Below are positions 24,481 through 30,016 of a stretch of 41,066 bases of DNA, piece after piece (the first letter of the stretch is position 1; every line of letters begins with the position of its first letter). The stretch comes from Acidobacteriaceae bacterium (GTDB lineage Bacteria; Acidobacteriota; Terriglobia; Terriglobales; Acidobacteriaceae): contig JANYBT010000143.1 in the NCBI GenBank assembly GCA_025360645.1, forward strand, positions 1 to 41,066. Direction: 5' to 3'. The notes under the pieces were generated by a model. The model did no database searches. It saw only the letters and a program-made list of their open reading frames with translations, and was not told the DNA's origin. The position numbers and the translations under genes are program-made.

Positions 24481-25701
24481 CTAATCCACTACATGCTTCG
24501 CCGTGTAGCCTTCGCGCGCGATGGTGTCCACCTTCACGTCTTTGTTCTTCTGGTCCTTGATCTTCAGCGGACCACCGTCGGGCGATACCAGTTCCACTTT
24601 CAGTTTGCGATAGGTCCCGTCAAACTTGGTGTTGGTCGGGTGATAGGCCAACTGGTACTGATTGCGGATGTCCGACGCTACATCCTTGAAAATCTCTGGC
24701 AATTCTCCTTCAAAGCGCGGGAAGTAGGCCCGCCCACCGGTCAGTTTTGCGAACGTCTTCATTTCGTTGTCGGCCTGCAAGTAATCGATGTTCTCAATCG
24801 GAATGCCGAATCCATGCGACGGCCTCCCCCCTCCTGCTTCCGCCCGAATCCGCGCCGCCTGACCGACCCCGATGGCGAAAATCGTCACGTTCTTAGTCGC
24901 TTTGATCTTCTTGAAGGTCTGGTCCAGGTTGATTCTGCTGAACGTGTCCACTCCGGTCGAAACCAAGATGATGTACTTGTGTCCCTCCACCCCATCCAGC
25001 CGGTCCAGCGTGTCATAGAGCGTGTCGAACAGATTGGTTTCAATGAACGTAGGAATGCGCAGCGTATTGAGCGCGCCGATAACTTCCCGCTTGTCCTGAG
25101 TGAAGTCCACCAGGATGCGCGGCTTGATGTCATAAGAGACCACCGACACCCAGTCGTCTTTCTTCAGCGTGCTGGCGAAGACGTAGCTGGCGTTCAACGC
25201 GTCACGCAGAAAAGCGTAATTCGTCTCCGCGAACTCCACCACCAGCACCGCGGTAATCGGCGCCTGCGATTGGCTGAAGTTGGTGATCTTCTGCTCTACC
25301 CCATCTTCGCTGACGCGGAAGTTCTCTTGCTTCATGCCCGGGATGAACTGGCCGCTTTTGGTCGTCACCAGCACGTCCACGTTCACCAGCGGCACATCTA
25401 CATGCAGCGAGTAATCCGGCATGTTTTCAATTTTCTTAGGCCTCTCGGGAGCGGGCGGGGGAGGAGCTTCCTTTTTCTTCGGAATCACATACGGACCCAC
25501 CTCGCCGCCTGGACCTCCGGCCTCAGCTGGCGCGTCTTGCTTGTTCGGGCTGCTGGGCGCAGGCGGCGGTGTATCCTGGGCAACGCCGAGCCCCATCAAC
25601 AGCATCAGAATCAATAAGATAGAGGCTCCGGAGCGGTTCCGAAAACGCTCTCTCGAACCCAAAAATTCACGCAACATCAGCCAATCACCCATGGGCATCA
25701 T
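24481..25701 (-). CDS. VWFA-related acidobacterial-type secreted protein
   Basis: 406 aa. After a basic N-terminus, a hydrophobic signal segment ([16 protein letters not shown]) is followed by a Pro-rich linker with [12 protein letters not shown]. The domain from about residue 95 begins [20 protein letters not shown] and [18 protein letters not shown], the typical opening of the VWFA-related family first defined in acidobacteria. It continues through a VWA fold ([46 protein letters not shown]) to the late [16 protein letters not shown]. The canonical DxSxS metal site is not obvious (VEFAETN instead). Function unknown; probably surface adhesion or assembly. This gene is the main taxonomic marker here. 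ATG 25677 is an alternative start. Confidence 0.9.
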
Positions 25702-25814: not shown

Positions 25815-27653
25815 ATGCAGAGAAGATTTTCTCCGGGGCCAAGAATGACGAAAGCCGCACTTTCGCTCGCTGCCCTGTGCTGTTTGCTGTCCGCCACCGC
25901 CAGCATCGCGCAGAGTTCCAAAGCCACTCCGACCATTCCTCTTGATCAGATTCACGCCGGCATGAAGGGCGTTGCCTACACCGTTTTTCAGGGCACCAAG
26001 CCTGAACCCATGGGGGTCGAAGTCCTGGGAGTGCTGCGCAATGTCAACGGGCCCAAGGGAGACGTCATTCTGGTCCGCCTCTCAGGAACCAAGCCCGAAT
26101 ACACCGGAGTGGTCGCCGGCATGAGCGGCAGCCCAGTCTATTTCGATGGCAAGCTCGCGGGCGCACTCGCCTTCCGCATCGGGGAATTTTCCAAAGAGCC
26201 GATTGCCGGCGTCACCCCCATCGGCGAGATGCTTGAAATCAACGCGTTTGACCGCAAGCCGGCGATGGATTCCCCATCCGCCCCGCTCCATGCGATCGTC
26301 GGCGCGTCCCAAACTGCTTCGCCCGCAGAAGCCTCCACCCCACCCTCCGCCGCACCGGCCGCCGGTTTCAGCAATTACCTCAAGCCGATTGACACTCCGC
26401 TCGTCTTCAGCGGGTTCTCCGAAGACGCGGTCCGCCGCTTCGCTCCTCAGTTCGCTGCTTCCGGCATTGTGCCGGTGATGGGTGCAGGCTCGGTTACCAC
26501 CGGCGCCAAACAGCCCGAGCCGCTGGAACCTGGCTCCGCGGTCAGCGCCATTTTAGTGCGCGGCGATATGGACATCGCCGCCACCTGCACCGTCACTTAC
26601 GTGGACGCCGAGCACCTTCTGGCTTGCGGACATCCTCTGTTGCAGTTTGGTTCCGTCGACCTGCCCATGAACAAGGCCGAGGTGCTGGCCACTCTGCCTT
26701 CGCCCCTCAACGCCTTCAAGATCGTCAACACCACCGAAGTCGCGGGCTCGTTTGTGCAGGACCGCAGCAAAGGCATTCTGGGCACGTTCGGCAAAGACGC
26801 CGACATGATCCCCGTCACCCTCACCATTCACGGCGGCTCGCGCCCGCGTGAATTTCACTTCGAAGTGCTAAACAATGCCAAGCTCAGTCCGGTCGCCATC
26901 ATGGCCTCAGTGTTCAACGCTTTGCACGGCACTAACGAATACGGCGAAGAAACGACTTTCCGCATGAAGGGCTCCATGGACGTGGAAGGCTATCCCCAAG
27001 TCGCGCTGGCTGACATGTTCGCGCCCAACGATGCTGGACAGCCCGCGGCGGCGCTGGCAGCAGCGAGTTTGGGCGACCGCTTCGGCCGCATCTATGGCAA
27101 CCTCTACGACATTCCGCAAGTGAAATCGCTGACCCTTGACTTCGAACTGGAGCGGGAGCGGAAATCAGCGCGGCTGGAGAGCGCCCGCACCGATGTGACC
27201 GAAGCCCGTCCCGGTGACGAGATTGTGGTGGAAGCCGTGCTCCGCCCCTACCGCGGAGAACGCATGGTCCGCCAAATTCCCATTCGCATTCCACCCTCCA
27301 CGTCCAAAGGCACGCTGCACATTCTGGTCAGCGACGGCGATACTCTCGACAAAGTGCGGGGCGCCGCTCCCCAACCCGGACGCAGTCTGGGCCTGGCCTC
27401 GACCATCGCGATGCTTAACCGCGAACACGTCAACAACCGCGTGTATGCGTCGTTGCTGCAGTCCGACCCCGAAGCCGTGGTCGCTGATAAAGTGATGCCC
27501 ACTCTGCCGCTGTCGGTAATGAACGTGATGGAAGGCATGAAGGGCACGCAGGAGATGGTGGTGCAGGGAGAGTCCTCGGTCGGCGAAGCTTCCACCCCGC
27601 CGCTGGATTTTGTCGTCTCAGGTGGCCGGTTGTTGACCATTACGATTAAGTGA
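25815..27653 (+). CDS. Secreted SpoIVB/S55-like peptidase-domain protein
   Basis: 612 aa from ATG 25815; ATG 25845 gives a cleaner signal peptide (MTKAALSLAALCCLLSA). Residues about 40-330 resemble the SpoIVB S55 peptidase. The serine motif VAGMSGSPVYFDGKLAGA is at 100-118. The histidine region CTVTYVDAEHLLACGHPLL (His273) is at 258-276, with SKGILGTFG at 318-326. In Bacillus SpoIVB the His precedes the Ser, so the order here is reversed. A Pro/Ala-rich linker (about 155-185) separates the two parts. The remainder has Ig-like character (RTDVTEARPGDEIVVEAVLR). An active periplasmic serine protease is possible but unproven. The propeller gene follows 119 bp later. Confidence 0.82.
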   Translation: MQRRFSPGPRMTKAALSLAALCCLLSATASIAQSSKATPTIPLDQIHAGMKGVAYTVFQGTKPEPMGVEVLGVLRNVNGPKGDVILVRLSGTKPEYTGVVAGMSGSPVYFDGKLAGALAFRIGEFSKEPIAGVTPIGEMLEINAFDRKPAMDSPSAPLHAIVGASQTASPAEASTPPSAAPAAGFSNYLKPIDTPLVFSGFSEDAVRRFAPQFAASGIVPVMGAGSVTTGAKQPEPLEPGSAVSAILVRGDMDIAATCTVTYVDAEHLLACGHPLLQFGSVDLPMNKAEVLATLPSPLNAFKIVNTTEVAGSFVQDRSKGILGTFGKDADMIPVTLTIHGGSRPREFHFEVLNNAKLSPVAIMASVFNALHGTNEYGEETTFRMKGSMDVEGYPQVALADMFAPNDAGQPAAALAAASLGDRFGRIYGNLYDIPQVKSLTLDFELERERKSARLESARTDVTEARPGDEIVVEAVLRPYRGERMVRQIPIRIPPSTSKGTLHILVSDGDTLDKVRGAAPQPGRSLGLASTIAMLNREHVNNRVYASLLQSDPEAVVADKVMPTLPLSVMNVMEGMKGTQEMVVQGESSVGEASTPPLDFVVSGGRLLTITIK

Positions 27654-27772
27654 GGCGGCCACCGGGATGGGGCAGTGACCAACGTCTCGCCCGCGCTCCA
27701 CTCGCTACCGGCATGCACCGGCGTTTGCGCGTGATACCTTTTTCCTAACAGAGTTTTTTGCCGAGGTCTGAC

Positions 27773-30016
27773 TTGTCAATCCGTTCGCTCCGTGGTTTCA
27801 CTCTTCTACCCATTCTCTTTCTCCTCCTCGGCACCGCTTGGGGCGAGGGCACCCGCACCTGGGAGCAGTCCAAGTTTGACGAGCTGATCAAGGGGACCAC
27901 CCACGGCGTGGCCATCCGCAGCCAGGGTGGCCTGGAACTCGCGCCCGCATTCAAGGCGCTGAACACCACCCCCTCCACTTACATCTGGGCCATTGCGTCC
28001 GACAGCGCAGGCAATGTTTATGCCGCCGCGGGCTCGCCGGCTCGCGTCTATCGCGTCACGCCCGATGGAAAATCCACAACCATCTTTGAGGCCCAGGAAC
28101 TGCAGGTGCAGGCCCTGGTGGCCGGCAACCATGGCGAACTGTATGCCGCGACCGCGCCCGATGGCAAGGTCTATCGCATCGAGCCCAAAGCCGCGAAGGC
28201 CGACGGCTCGTGGAACTCCAGCGTCTTCTTCGATCCCAAGACCAAATACATCTGGGCGCTGCTGCTCGATGGCAATGGCAACCTGTATGTCGCGACCGGC
28301 GATCAAGGCGAAATTTTCCGCGTCAACTCACGCGGCGAAGGCGCACGGTTTTTCAAGAGCGACGAAGTTCATATTCGCGCTCTTGCCCTTGATCCCAGCG
28401 GCAACCTGGTCGCAGGTTCTGATGGCTCCGGCCTGATCTACCGCATCACGCCCAAGGGCGAGGGTTTCGTTCTCTATAGCGCGCCCAAGAAAGAAATCAC
28501 CGCGCTCGCAGTAGACCACGCTGGCAACATCTATGCTGCCGGCGTGGGAGAAAAGCGCGGCGGCGGCTCCCCGGGGCTGAACATCCCGGCGCCGCAGCCC
28601 AATCCCGCAACTCCGGGCGGTCTAGGCATCACCATCATCGGCGGGCCTGGCCCCATCCCTGGACAGGGTATGCTCTCGTTTCCGCTGCCCGGTGTCGGCG
28701 CTTCCGGTGGATCGGATATCTATCGCATCACACCCGACGGCGCACCCTCGCGTTATTGGTCGGCCCACGAAGACATCATTTACGCTCTCGCCTTCGACCC
28801 GCAAGGACGATTGCTTGCGGGCACCGGCAATCGCGGCCACATCTTCACCATCACCGGTCAAGACCAGTACACGGATCTGCTTAAGGCCAGCGCCAGCCAG
28901 GTGACTGCTTTCGCCGCCGCTCCCAACGGCGGTTTGTATGCCGCCACCAGCAATCTGGGCAAACTGTTCGTGCTCGCCGCCGCGCCCGACGCCGAAGGCA
29001 CCTACGAAAGCGACGTGTTTGACGCTCGCAACTTCTCGCGGTGGGGACGCGCCGAATTTCGCGGCGCCGGCAACGTCGAGATCTTTGCCCGCAGCGGCAA
29101 CGTGGACAATCCCGACCGCAACTGGAGCCCATGGACCCGCGTCGAGTTGAAAGATGGCGCAACCCTCGGCGTGCCTCCCGCCCGCTTTGCGCAGTGGAAA
29201 GCGGTGTTGCACGCGGGCAATCCCGCGCCCCGGGTGCAGAGCATGATGCTGTACTATCTGCCGAAGAACGTCGCGCCGGTCCTCGAGGATGTGACCGTGC
29301 AAGTCGGCTTCCGGTATCCGCAGATGCTCAAGTCCCAAGGCGCCGACGCCAACTCGACGCCGGGCCAGCCGCGCTTTGAGGTGCCCGCCGCCAGCATTCG
29401 CGATCGCGGGTCCGTCGGCGTGAAGTGGACCGCTCGCGACGACAATGACGACCAGCTCTCCTATTCCGTGTATTACCGCGGCGACGGCGAATCGCGTTGG
29501 CTGTTGCTGCGGGAAGACGTGACCGAGCACTATCTCTCATTTGACGCAGGCCTGTTGCCCGACGGCGGCTACCAGGTGAAGGTAGTGGCATCCGACGAGT
29601 TGTCGCACTCACCTGGCGAGGCCTTGACTGCGGAACGAGAAAGCGCTCGCTTCGAAGTGGACAACACGCCGCCGCAGATTCAGGCGCTGGCTGCGGCCGA
29701 GGACGGCGACAAGCTCCACATCACTTTCCGCGCGGTCGATGGATTCTCGCCCATCAAGCGCGCCGAGTTTTCAGTGGACGCGGGCGACTGGCAGTTGATC
29801 GAGCCGGTGGGGCAGCTCTCCGACTCGAGGACCGAGAGTTACGATTTCCGCGCAGCGGGCGATCCGGTTCCGCCCTCGGATGGCTCTGCTCGCAACCTTG
29901 CAGCAAAAGGAAAAGCGGATGCGGCGAAGGGGCCGATCGACCACGTGGTGGTGGTTCGCGTCTATGACACCTTCGAGAATATGGCGACGGCGCGGATTTT
30001 GGTGCGGGGCAAATAA
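27773..30016 (+). CDS. Secreted seven-bladed beta-propeller protein with C-terminal Ig/FN3-like domains
   Basis: 747 aa from TTG 27773, which has GAGG six bases upstream; TTG 27758 is the other candidate. Signal peptide: LLPILFLLLGTAWGEG. Residues about 60-410 contain seven repeats of one pattern, among them NVYAAAGSPARVYRVTPDG, ELYAATAPDGKVYRIEP, NLYVATGDQGEIFRVNS, SGLIYRITPKGEG, GGSDIYRITPDG, GTGNRGHIFTITG and GLYAATSNLGKLFVLAA. These fit a seven-bladed propeller, with a Gly/Pro-rich insert of about 50 residues in blade 5. The rest is beta-sandwich-like (RWGRAEFRGAGNVEIFARSG, then SVGVKWTARDDNDDQLSYSV and a final Ig-like unit). Role unknown; likely a periplasmic or surface scaffold working with the S55-like protein upstream. 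Confidence 0.85.
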   Translation: MSIRSLRGFTLLPILFLLLGTAWGEGTRTWEQSKFDELIKGTTHGVAIRSQGGLELAPAFKALNTTPSTYIWAIASDSAGNVYAAAGSPARVYRVTPDGKSTTIFEAQELQVQALVAGNHGELYAATAPDGKVYRIEPKAAKADGSWNSSVFFDPKTKYIWALLLDGNGNLYVATGDQGEIFRVNSRGEGARFFKSDEVHIRALALDPSGNLVAGSDGSGLIYRITPKGEGFVLYSAPKKEITALAVDHAGNIYAAGVGEKRGGGSPGLNIPAPQPNPATPGGLGITIIGGPGPIPGQGMLSFPLPGVGASGGSDIYRITPDGAPSRYWSAHEDIIYALAFDPQGRLLAGTGNRGHIFTITGQDQYTDLLKASASQVTAFAAAPNGGLYAATSNLGKLFVLAAAPDAEGTYESDVFDARNFSRWGRAEFRGAGNVEIFARSGNVDNPDRNWSPWTRVELKDGATLGVPPARFAQWKAVLHAGNPAPRVQSMMLYYLPKNVAPVLEDVTVQVGFRYPQMLKSQGADANSTPGQPRFEVPAASIRDRGSVGVKWTARDDNDDQLSYSVYYRGDGESRWLLLREDVTEHYLSFDAGLLPDGGYQVKVVASDELSHSPGEALTAERESARFEVDNTPPQIQALAAAEDGDKLHITFRAVDGFSPIKRAEFSVDAGDWQLIEPVGQLSDSRTESYDFRAAGDPVPPSDGSARNLAAKGKADAAKGPIDHVVVVRVYDTFENMATARILVRGK

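Follow-up and report, generated by a model that had tools for sequence, protein, structure and literature searches.

Background

Can the two halves of a chymotrypsin-like serine protease change places in nature? The question is raised by one gene in the window, i.e. the whole stretch of 41,066 nucleotides from an Acidobacteriaceae bacterium (contig JANYBT010000143.1) that was analysed here, since its product carries the serine motif GMSGSP of the S55 peptidases ahead of a GHP motif, whereas in SpoIVB of Bacillus subtilis (S55, PF05580, PDB 9lnf) the half with the histidine comes first. Few protein folds have been studied as intensively as that of the two-barrel serine proteases, the order of its barrels is usually assumed to be fixed, and to our knowledge no natural permutation of the chymotrypsin fold is known. 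The open-licence PMC literature searched, so far as its text was available, reports no permuted S55 or PA-clan protease, and the same holds for the available portions of PMC8841776, PMC6411480 and PMC9638714.

Results

Order of the motifs

GMSGSP occupies residues 102-107 and is followed by G272-H273-P274 and then by GILGTFG at residues 320-326, just where a sequence-only reading of the locus had seen them (Table 1). For comparison with relatives we used an alignment of 97 sequences, comprising the window protein, 9 of 60 Terriglobales-type homologues and 87 of 95 loci from genomes of the phylum. The 60 are those with a frame of at least 540 codons among 64 loci with acidobacterial titles from genome contigs, four of which were dropped as truncated or split; omitted from the 95 were the copy belonging to the window itself, six duplicates of genes already included, and one further locus (L066). 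The aligned Ser precedes the aligned His in all 97 members, at a spacing of 142-195 residues, and because G102-P107, G272 and H273 are each invariant in the aligned homologues this order, which the sequence-only reading had seen in a single protein, is not due to chance. Asp251 is invariant as well, and Pro274 and Asp316 are kept in 93 and 96 members, respectively. A search for the usual His-before-Ser order elsewhere in the 97 proteins returned no S55 His-half match above 0 bits ahead of GMSGSP, and the translation of the window protein contains no GH upstream of that motif; a stray GHx upstream of it occurs in the stop-to-stop frames of a few relatives. As to the nucleophile, which had been left undecided between Ser106 and Ser104, it is Ser104, the third residue of GMSGSP, that aligns with SpoIVB Ser378, and Ser106 drops out. 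(SpoIVB numbers refer to a sequence that was checked against 9lnf; the UniProt number is the number used here minus one.)

The native protein passes the curated cut-off of PF05580 by its Ser half only, with residues 33-120 covering profile positions 105-192 of 210 (25.7 bits, cut-off 25). In a search of PDB sequences up to E 10 the only match was SpoIVB 9lnf, weakly (E 0.23) and again in the Ser half. It follows that the part expected after the His half here sits directly behind an N-terminus resembling a signal peptide. No other Pfam family, and no PDZ domain ahead of the protease, was matched at E up to 10, with the restriction that the HMMER filters drop most matches above 0.1. On the NCBIfam model for SpoIVB, TIGR02860, the window protein scores 21.9 bits as compared to the equivalog cut-off of 305.25, which is missed by the relatives L146 (40.2 bits) and L149 (50.8 bits) too.

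Table 1. Positions in the window of the gene under study, of its parts and of the neighbouring genes
Feature	Position	Strand	Basis or remark
Whole gene, putatively permuted S55-like protein	25815..27653	+	ORF, 612 aa from ATG
Probable Sec signal peptide, about residues 11-32	25845..25910	+	Inference; translation inspected by eye, no predictor
Ser-bearing barrel, residues 38-146	25926..26252	+	Match to C-terminal half of PF05580, and VIA-align
GMSGSP, residues 102-107	26118..26135	+	Identical in 97/97; Ser104 codon 26124-26126
Variable linker between Ser and His halves, residues 147-235	26253..26519	+	Low column conservation
His-bearing half, about residues 225-345	26487..26849	+	Fits S55 N-terminal half best once moved in front
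Asp251 codon	26565..26567	+	Equivalent to SpoIVB Asp213; 97/97
GHP, residues 272-274	26628..26636	+	His273 equivalent to SpoIVB His236, register from a weak alignment (P 0.003)
Asp316 codon, candidate third catalytic residue	26760..26762	+	96/97; SpoIVB counterpart Asn290
C-terminal region, residues 346-612	26850..27650	+	Without Pfam match; model confident in part
Beta-propeller gene, possible partner	27758..30016	+	752-codon frame, downstream, same strand
Gene for TIGR03436 acidobacterial VWA protein	24481-25701	-	Upstream, divergent

Restoring the usual order

What becomes of these matches when the order of SpoIVB is restored, that is, when the His half is placed before the Ser half? In the three proteins rotated in this way, the window protein, L146 and L149, the result was in every case one continuous match to PF05580 that exceeded the shuffled control, which at the level of sequence supports the circular permutation that had been inferred. 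For the window protein the gain is modest, the rotated form scoring 31.9 bits over profile positions 17-192 as compared to 25.7 bits in native order and 24.0 bits with a shuffled His half. The gains are strong in L146 (rotated 68.0 bits, native 55.8, shuffled 45.9) and L149 (63.3, 53.3 and 41.4 bits), which are favourable examples picked among the high Pfam scorers; in both, the rotated match spans profile positions 13-194 and the native protein gives two separate stretches.

In the first HMM test, a profile built from four SpoIVBs was applied to the 97 proteins. Mean scores were 29.2 bits for the native proteins, 30.7 bits for the Ser half alone and 5.5 bits for the His half alone (-5.0 bits when shuffled). 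Rotation (residues 236-345 set before 38-146) raised the mean to 35.3 bits, as compared to 29.1 bits for a shuffled His half joined to the Ser half and 29.5 bits for a control region (residues 420-540) joined to it, and 91 of the 97 rotated forms exceeded all five of their own shuffles. It counts against this evidence that a shuffled His half could by itself bring a gain of 9.0 bits in the most extreme case, its average effect being a loss of 1.6 bits. A full-length match to the SpoIVB HMM in native order was found in none of the 97 proteins.

To locate the missing half, segments of 110 residues were moved along the protein, set before the Ser half and scored with our own HMM of five SpoIVBs. 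The mean gain peaks at residues 225-334 (6.35 bits, positive in 94 of 97 proteins), is 4.74 bits for 236-345, 3.66 bits for 247-356 and 1.90 bits for 214-323, and stays below 1 bit or turns negative at the remaining steps. With the same HMM the native order, Ser then His, gains too (mean 2.04 bits versus 4.74 bits rotated), and a reversed His half before the Ser half gives -1.58 bits. Judged by these scores, the missing S55 half is at about residues 225-345 and may start, within what Table 1 lists as linker, as early as about residue 225.

In profile-profile comparison the rotated forms reach 98.2 (residues 225-334) and 95.7 (236-345), and the native order 87.4-87.5. The rotated profile surpasses each of 200 column shuffles of residues 225-334, which average 87.7 and do not exceed 93.0. 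The best rotated alignment takes in only residues 302-334 of the His half, however, and excludes the GH motif. Two further ideas about the remaining parts of the chain were dropped, namely a vestigial PDZ domain in the linker (linker versus SpoIVB, P 0.16) and a degenerate second Ser barrel, left over from a duplication, behind the His half (neither the 'cterm' nor the 'post' segments were significant versus SpoIVB).

The predicted Ser barrel

Two AlphaFold2 models were obtained, one of the full length from residue 37 (model 1; 18 sequences, mean pLDDT 54.9) and one of residues 37-430 (model 2; 57 sequences, mean pLDDT 45.1). Both are poor overall. The N-terminal part of about 110 residues is predicted as six strands in either model, with uneven confidence (block-mean pLDDT of the Ser barrel 35-74 in model 1 and 42-89 in the better model 2). 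The His half has a pLDDT near 30 in both, and packing of the barrels is not shown.

In two VIA-align searches, model residues 1-113 at most (protein residues 37-149) superpose on the C-terminal barrels of HtrA-type proteases, among them DegP (150-258), DegQ, DegS and HtrA1, and on those of viral 3C-like proteases; among the matches listed, 50 per search, Z ranges from 10.0 to 11.7, with 79-102 residues aligned at 2.1-4.4 Angstrom. The matched range of DegP includes residue 210, which we take to be its catalytic Ser. Superposition of the Ser half on HtrA C-terminal barrels implies that the first barrel of the modelled protein corresponds to the second barrel of the usual fold. SpoIVB itself (9lnf) is not among the 50 matches listed per search, which is no evidence against the assignment, and Foldseek gave no match with model 1 at E up to 0.001.

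Candidate catalytic residues

Asp251 aligns with SpoIVB Asp213, which is an Asp in all five SpoIVBs used. A second acidic residue, Asp316, had not been foreseen by the sequence-only reading. It lies 43 residues past His273, near the spacing of 45 residues between His57 and Asp102 of chymotrypsin, and its counterpart by visual inspection of the alignments is SpoIVB Asn290, an Asn in four of the five SpoIVBs and a Ser in one. We regard Asp316 as a candidate third catalytic residue on the strength of the alignment. The catalytic order Ser104-His273-Asp316 is proposed in the absence of activity data; it would correspond to His-Asp-Ser, the usual order, rotated exactly. The sole member of the 97 without an Asp at position 316 is L125, which has Ile and whose genome (G071) holds a second profile match.

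How does this compare with SpoIVB? In the available portions of the paper on its crystal structure (PMC12502668), Asp363 lies about 24 Angstrom from His236, Thr393 is proposed as the third catalytic residue, and Asp213 is not discussed. The position of Thr393 is occupied in the 97 members by Ala (62), Ser (34) or Gly (1). Asp363, as judged by eye, is not kept in the permuted family either, and the loss of both residues counts against the two-barrel protease proposed below.

Occurrence and neighbours

The sequence-only reading had proposed looking for the same order in other acidobacteria, and there it is phylum-wide and no local oddity: besides the uniform order in the alignment, a profile of 18 sequences matches 281 of 297 Acidobacteriota genomes, and 249 of the 258 with a completeness of 90% or more and a contamination of 5% or less. 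On this count an assembly artefact was dismissed. With a relative in nearly every acidobacterial genome examined, the rearrangement of this very common enzyme fold is probably both genuine and ancient. Absence of the gene can occur all the same, since among the 16 genomes without a match six are nearly complete and belong to the same family or class. PF05580 matches 187 of 199 Acidobacteriota genomes, 168 of them over the cut-off, with all matches listed starting at profile position 94 at the earliest; the window's own genome has one such match. The available part of PMC8841776 likewise describes S55 peptidases as widely detected in acidobacteria and absent from two members of one family, and its passage on them is silent on the order of the halves.

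Genome searches centred on Acidobacteriota only. PF05580 also matches three control genomes, one of them over the cut-off; the matches in Thermotoga maritima and Methanosarcina acetivorans are apparently below it. The window protein found no match in plasmids or phages, a second query (A1) none in viral contigs, and L149 hit nothing in plasmids beyond a Monoglobus spoIVB, and of this just the Ser part. On two records that carry a plasmid label, from Monoglobus and Sedimentibacter (L096, L098), spoIVB adjoins spo0A, and these may be mislabelled chromosomal pieces. An IMG/VR contig listed as viral (L164) carries a canonical SpoIVB reading frame near its end.

Downstream of the gene lies a frame whose product matches several Pfam propeller families over their cut-offs, Fn3 below its cut-off, and none of three NCBIfam models over cut-off. 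By BLAST, 13 of 15 other genomes (the misses being L180 and L183) have a homologue of it adjacent to the S55-like gene and on the same strand; the 15 were hand-chosen across the phylum, with two in the same family or class and two in one genus. Of the 52 Terriglobales-type loci that extend far enough to show it, 33 have the propeller neighbour and 19 lack it. Propellers being repetitive, some of these BLAST matches may be non-orthologous. The upstream VWA gene is a neighbour in 58 of the 59 Terriglobales-type loci that reach far enough, but in only 1 of the 15 chosen genomes. The propeller pairing looks like the older link. It suggests, by inference, a joint exported function.

Discussion

Taken together, the protein is best explained as an exported PA-fold (chymotrypsin) serine endopeptidase with its two beta-barrels in swapped order, a reading to which we assign a probability of roughly three in four and in which export, the periplasmic location named by the sequence-only reading, packing and catalysis are inferred. 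The chain would run from the Ser barrel through the variable linker to a His barrel and on to a C-terminal region of unknown fold. The two barrels are presumed to pack as in SpoIVB and HtrA, and Ser104 would be activated by His273, itself oriented by Asp316 or possibly Asp251. A functional link to the adjacent beta-propeller protein is likewise inferred, as is the origin of the family from a canonical S55-type protease that was rearranged in or before the acidobacterial ancestor. The permutation as such we consider well supported by the comparisons of sequence and in part by the predicted structure.

But would a swapped order of the halves have to mean that a single molecule builds the active site? 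The halves might be permuted and the site nevertheless form between two molecules, as in a swapped dimer, or only once a cut in the linker has produced two chains. With its roughly 80-90 residues this linker is long, and it shows little conservation, with a mean column conservation of 0.33 (146-235) as compared to 0.63 (37-145) and 0.57 (236-345) on either side, and self-cleavage sites at the N-terminus of SpoIVB are reported in the available part of PMC12502668. However, a linker of this length equally suffices for packing within one molecule, and in the absence of direct evidence we hold this arrangement to be improbable, if the most durable of the alternatives.

Less probable still is that only the Ser half derives from S55 and that the His half, as an unrelated domain, owes its GHP to chance, in which case the protein would not be a two-barrel protease. 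The similarity of the His half alone is indeed weak (hhalign P from 0.003 to about 0.02 versus SpoIVB; profile score 21.6, above the mean of 13.6 of 200 shuffles but below the best of them, 28.9), and the region is not modelled with confidence. A separate match above 0 bits to the His half of the HMM is lacking in 54 of the 97 native proteins; in the 43 that have one, however, it lies after GMSGSP without exception. Moreover, segments that begin at residues 225-247 gain most on rotation, other segments and a reversed His half gain little or lose, rotated forms outscore their shuffles, and invariance is as complete for GH and Asp251 as for GMSGSP itself. Least of all do we favour a permuted but inactive pseudoprotease that serves as a binding domain, which could appeal to the lack of any known activity and to the Ala, Ser or Gly at the position of Thr393 but would leave unaccounted for that the only positions other than Gly and Pro conserved to at least 97% in the 97 members (M103, S104, S106, D251, T259, T261, H273 and D316) look like a selected active-site pattern.

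Under the preferred reading of a two-barrel protease in swapped order, the protein belongs beside S55 as a circularly permuted relative and is no SpoIVB. With SpoIVB it has in common GMSGSP, GH and the equivalent of Asp213, and both halves are similar once the order is restored. Different from SpoIVB however, the permuted protein has no PDZ match, has Asp316 in place of Asn290, does not conserve Thr393 and carries a long C-terminal region. The sporulation marker is absent too: Spo0A_C had no match in the one genome searched, the window's own, with B. subtilis as a positive control, which is consistent, as far as this single marker goes, with the earlier assumption of a lineage that does not sporulate. 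With the HtrA/Deg proteases (DegP, DegQ, DegS) and other PA-clan enzymes including the viral 3C-like proteases the protein would share the fold of the Ser barrel, which comes later in their chains and first in this one. The noncanonical PDZ domains of bacteria, as described in the available part of PMC6411480, are likewise a case of natural circular permutation in a protease-associated domain; the domain is a different one, however, and no permuted protease domain is mentioned there.

The full claim, that of a phylum-wide natural permuted chymotrypsin-fold protease that has the order Ser-His-Asp, bears the canonical Asp in place of the Asn of SpoIVB and works in a module with a secreted beta-propeller protein, is one to which we would give even odds.

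Conclusions

A natural permutation of this kind throughout a phylum would, if true, be a direct test of how far the fold tolerates rewiring, and it would offer a comparison for the unsettled catalytic triad of SpoIVB. It would then be misleading to label these genes 'SpoIVB peptidase', as family searches suggest. Acidobacteria are abundant in soil and little studied, and what would have been identified in them is a likely exported protease.
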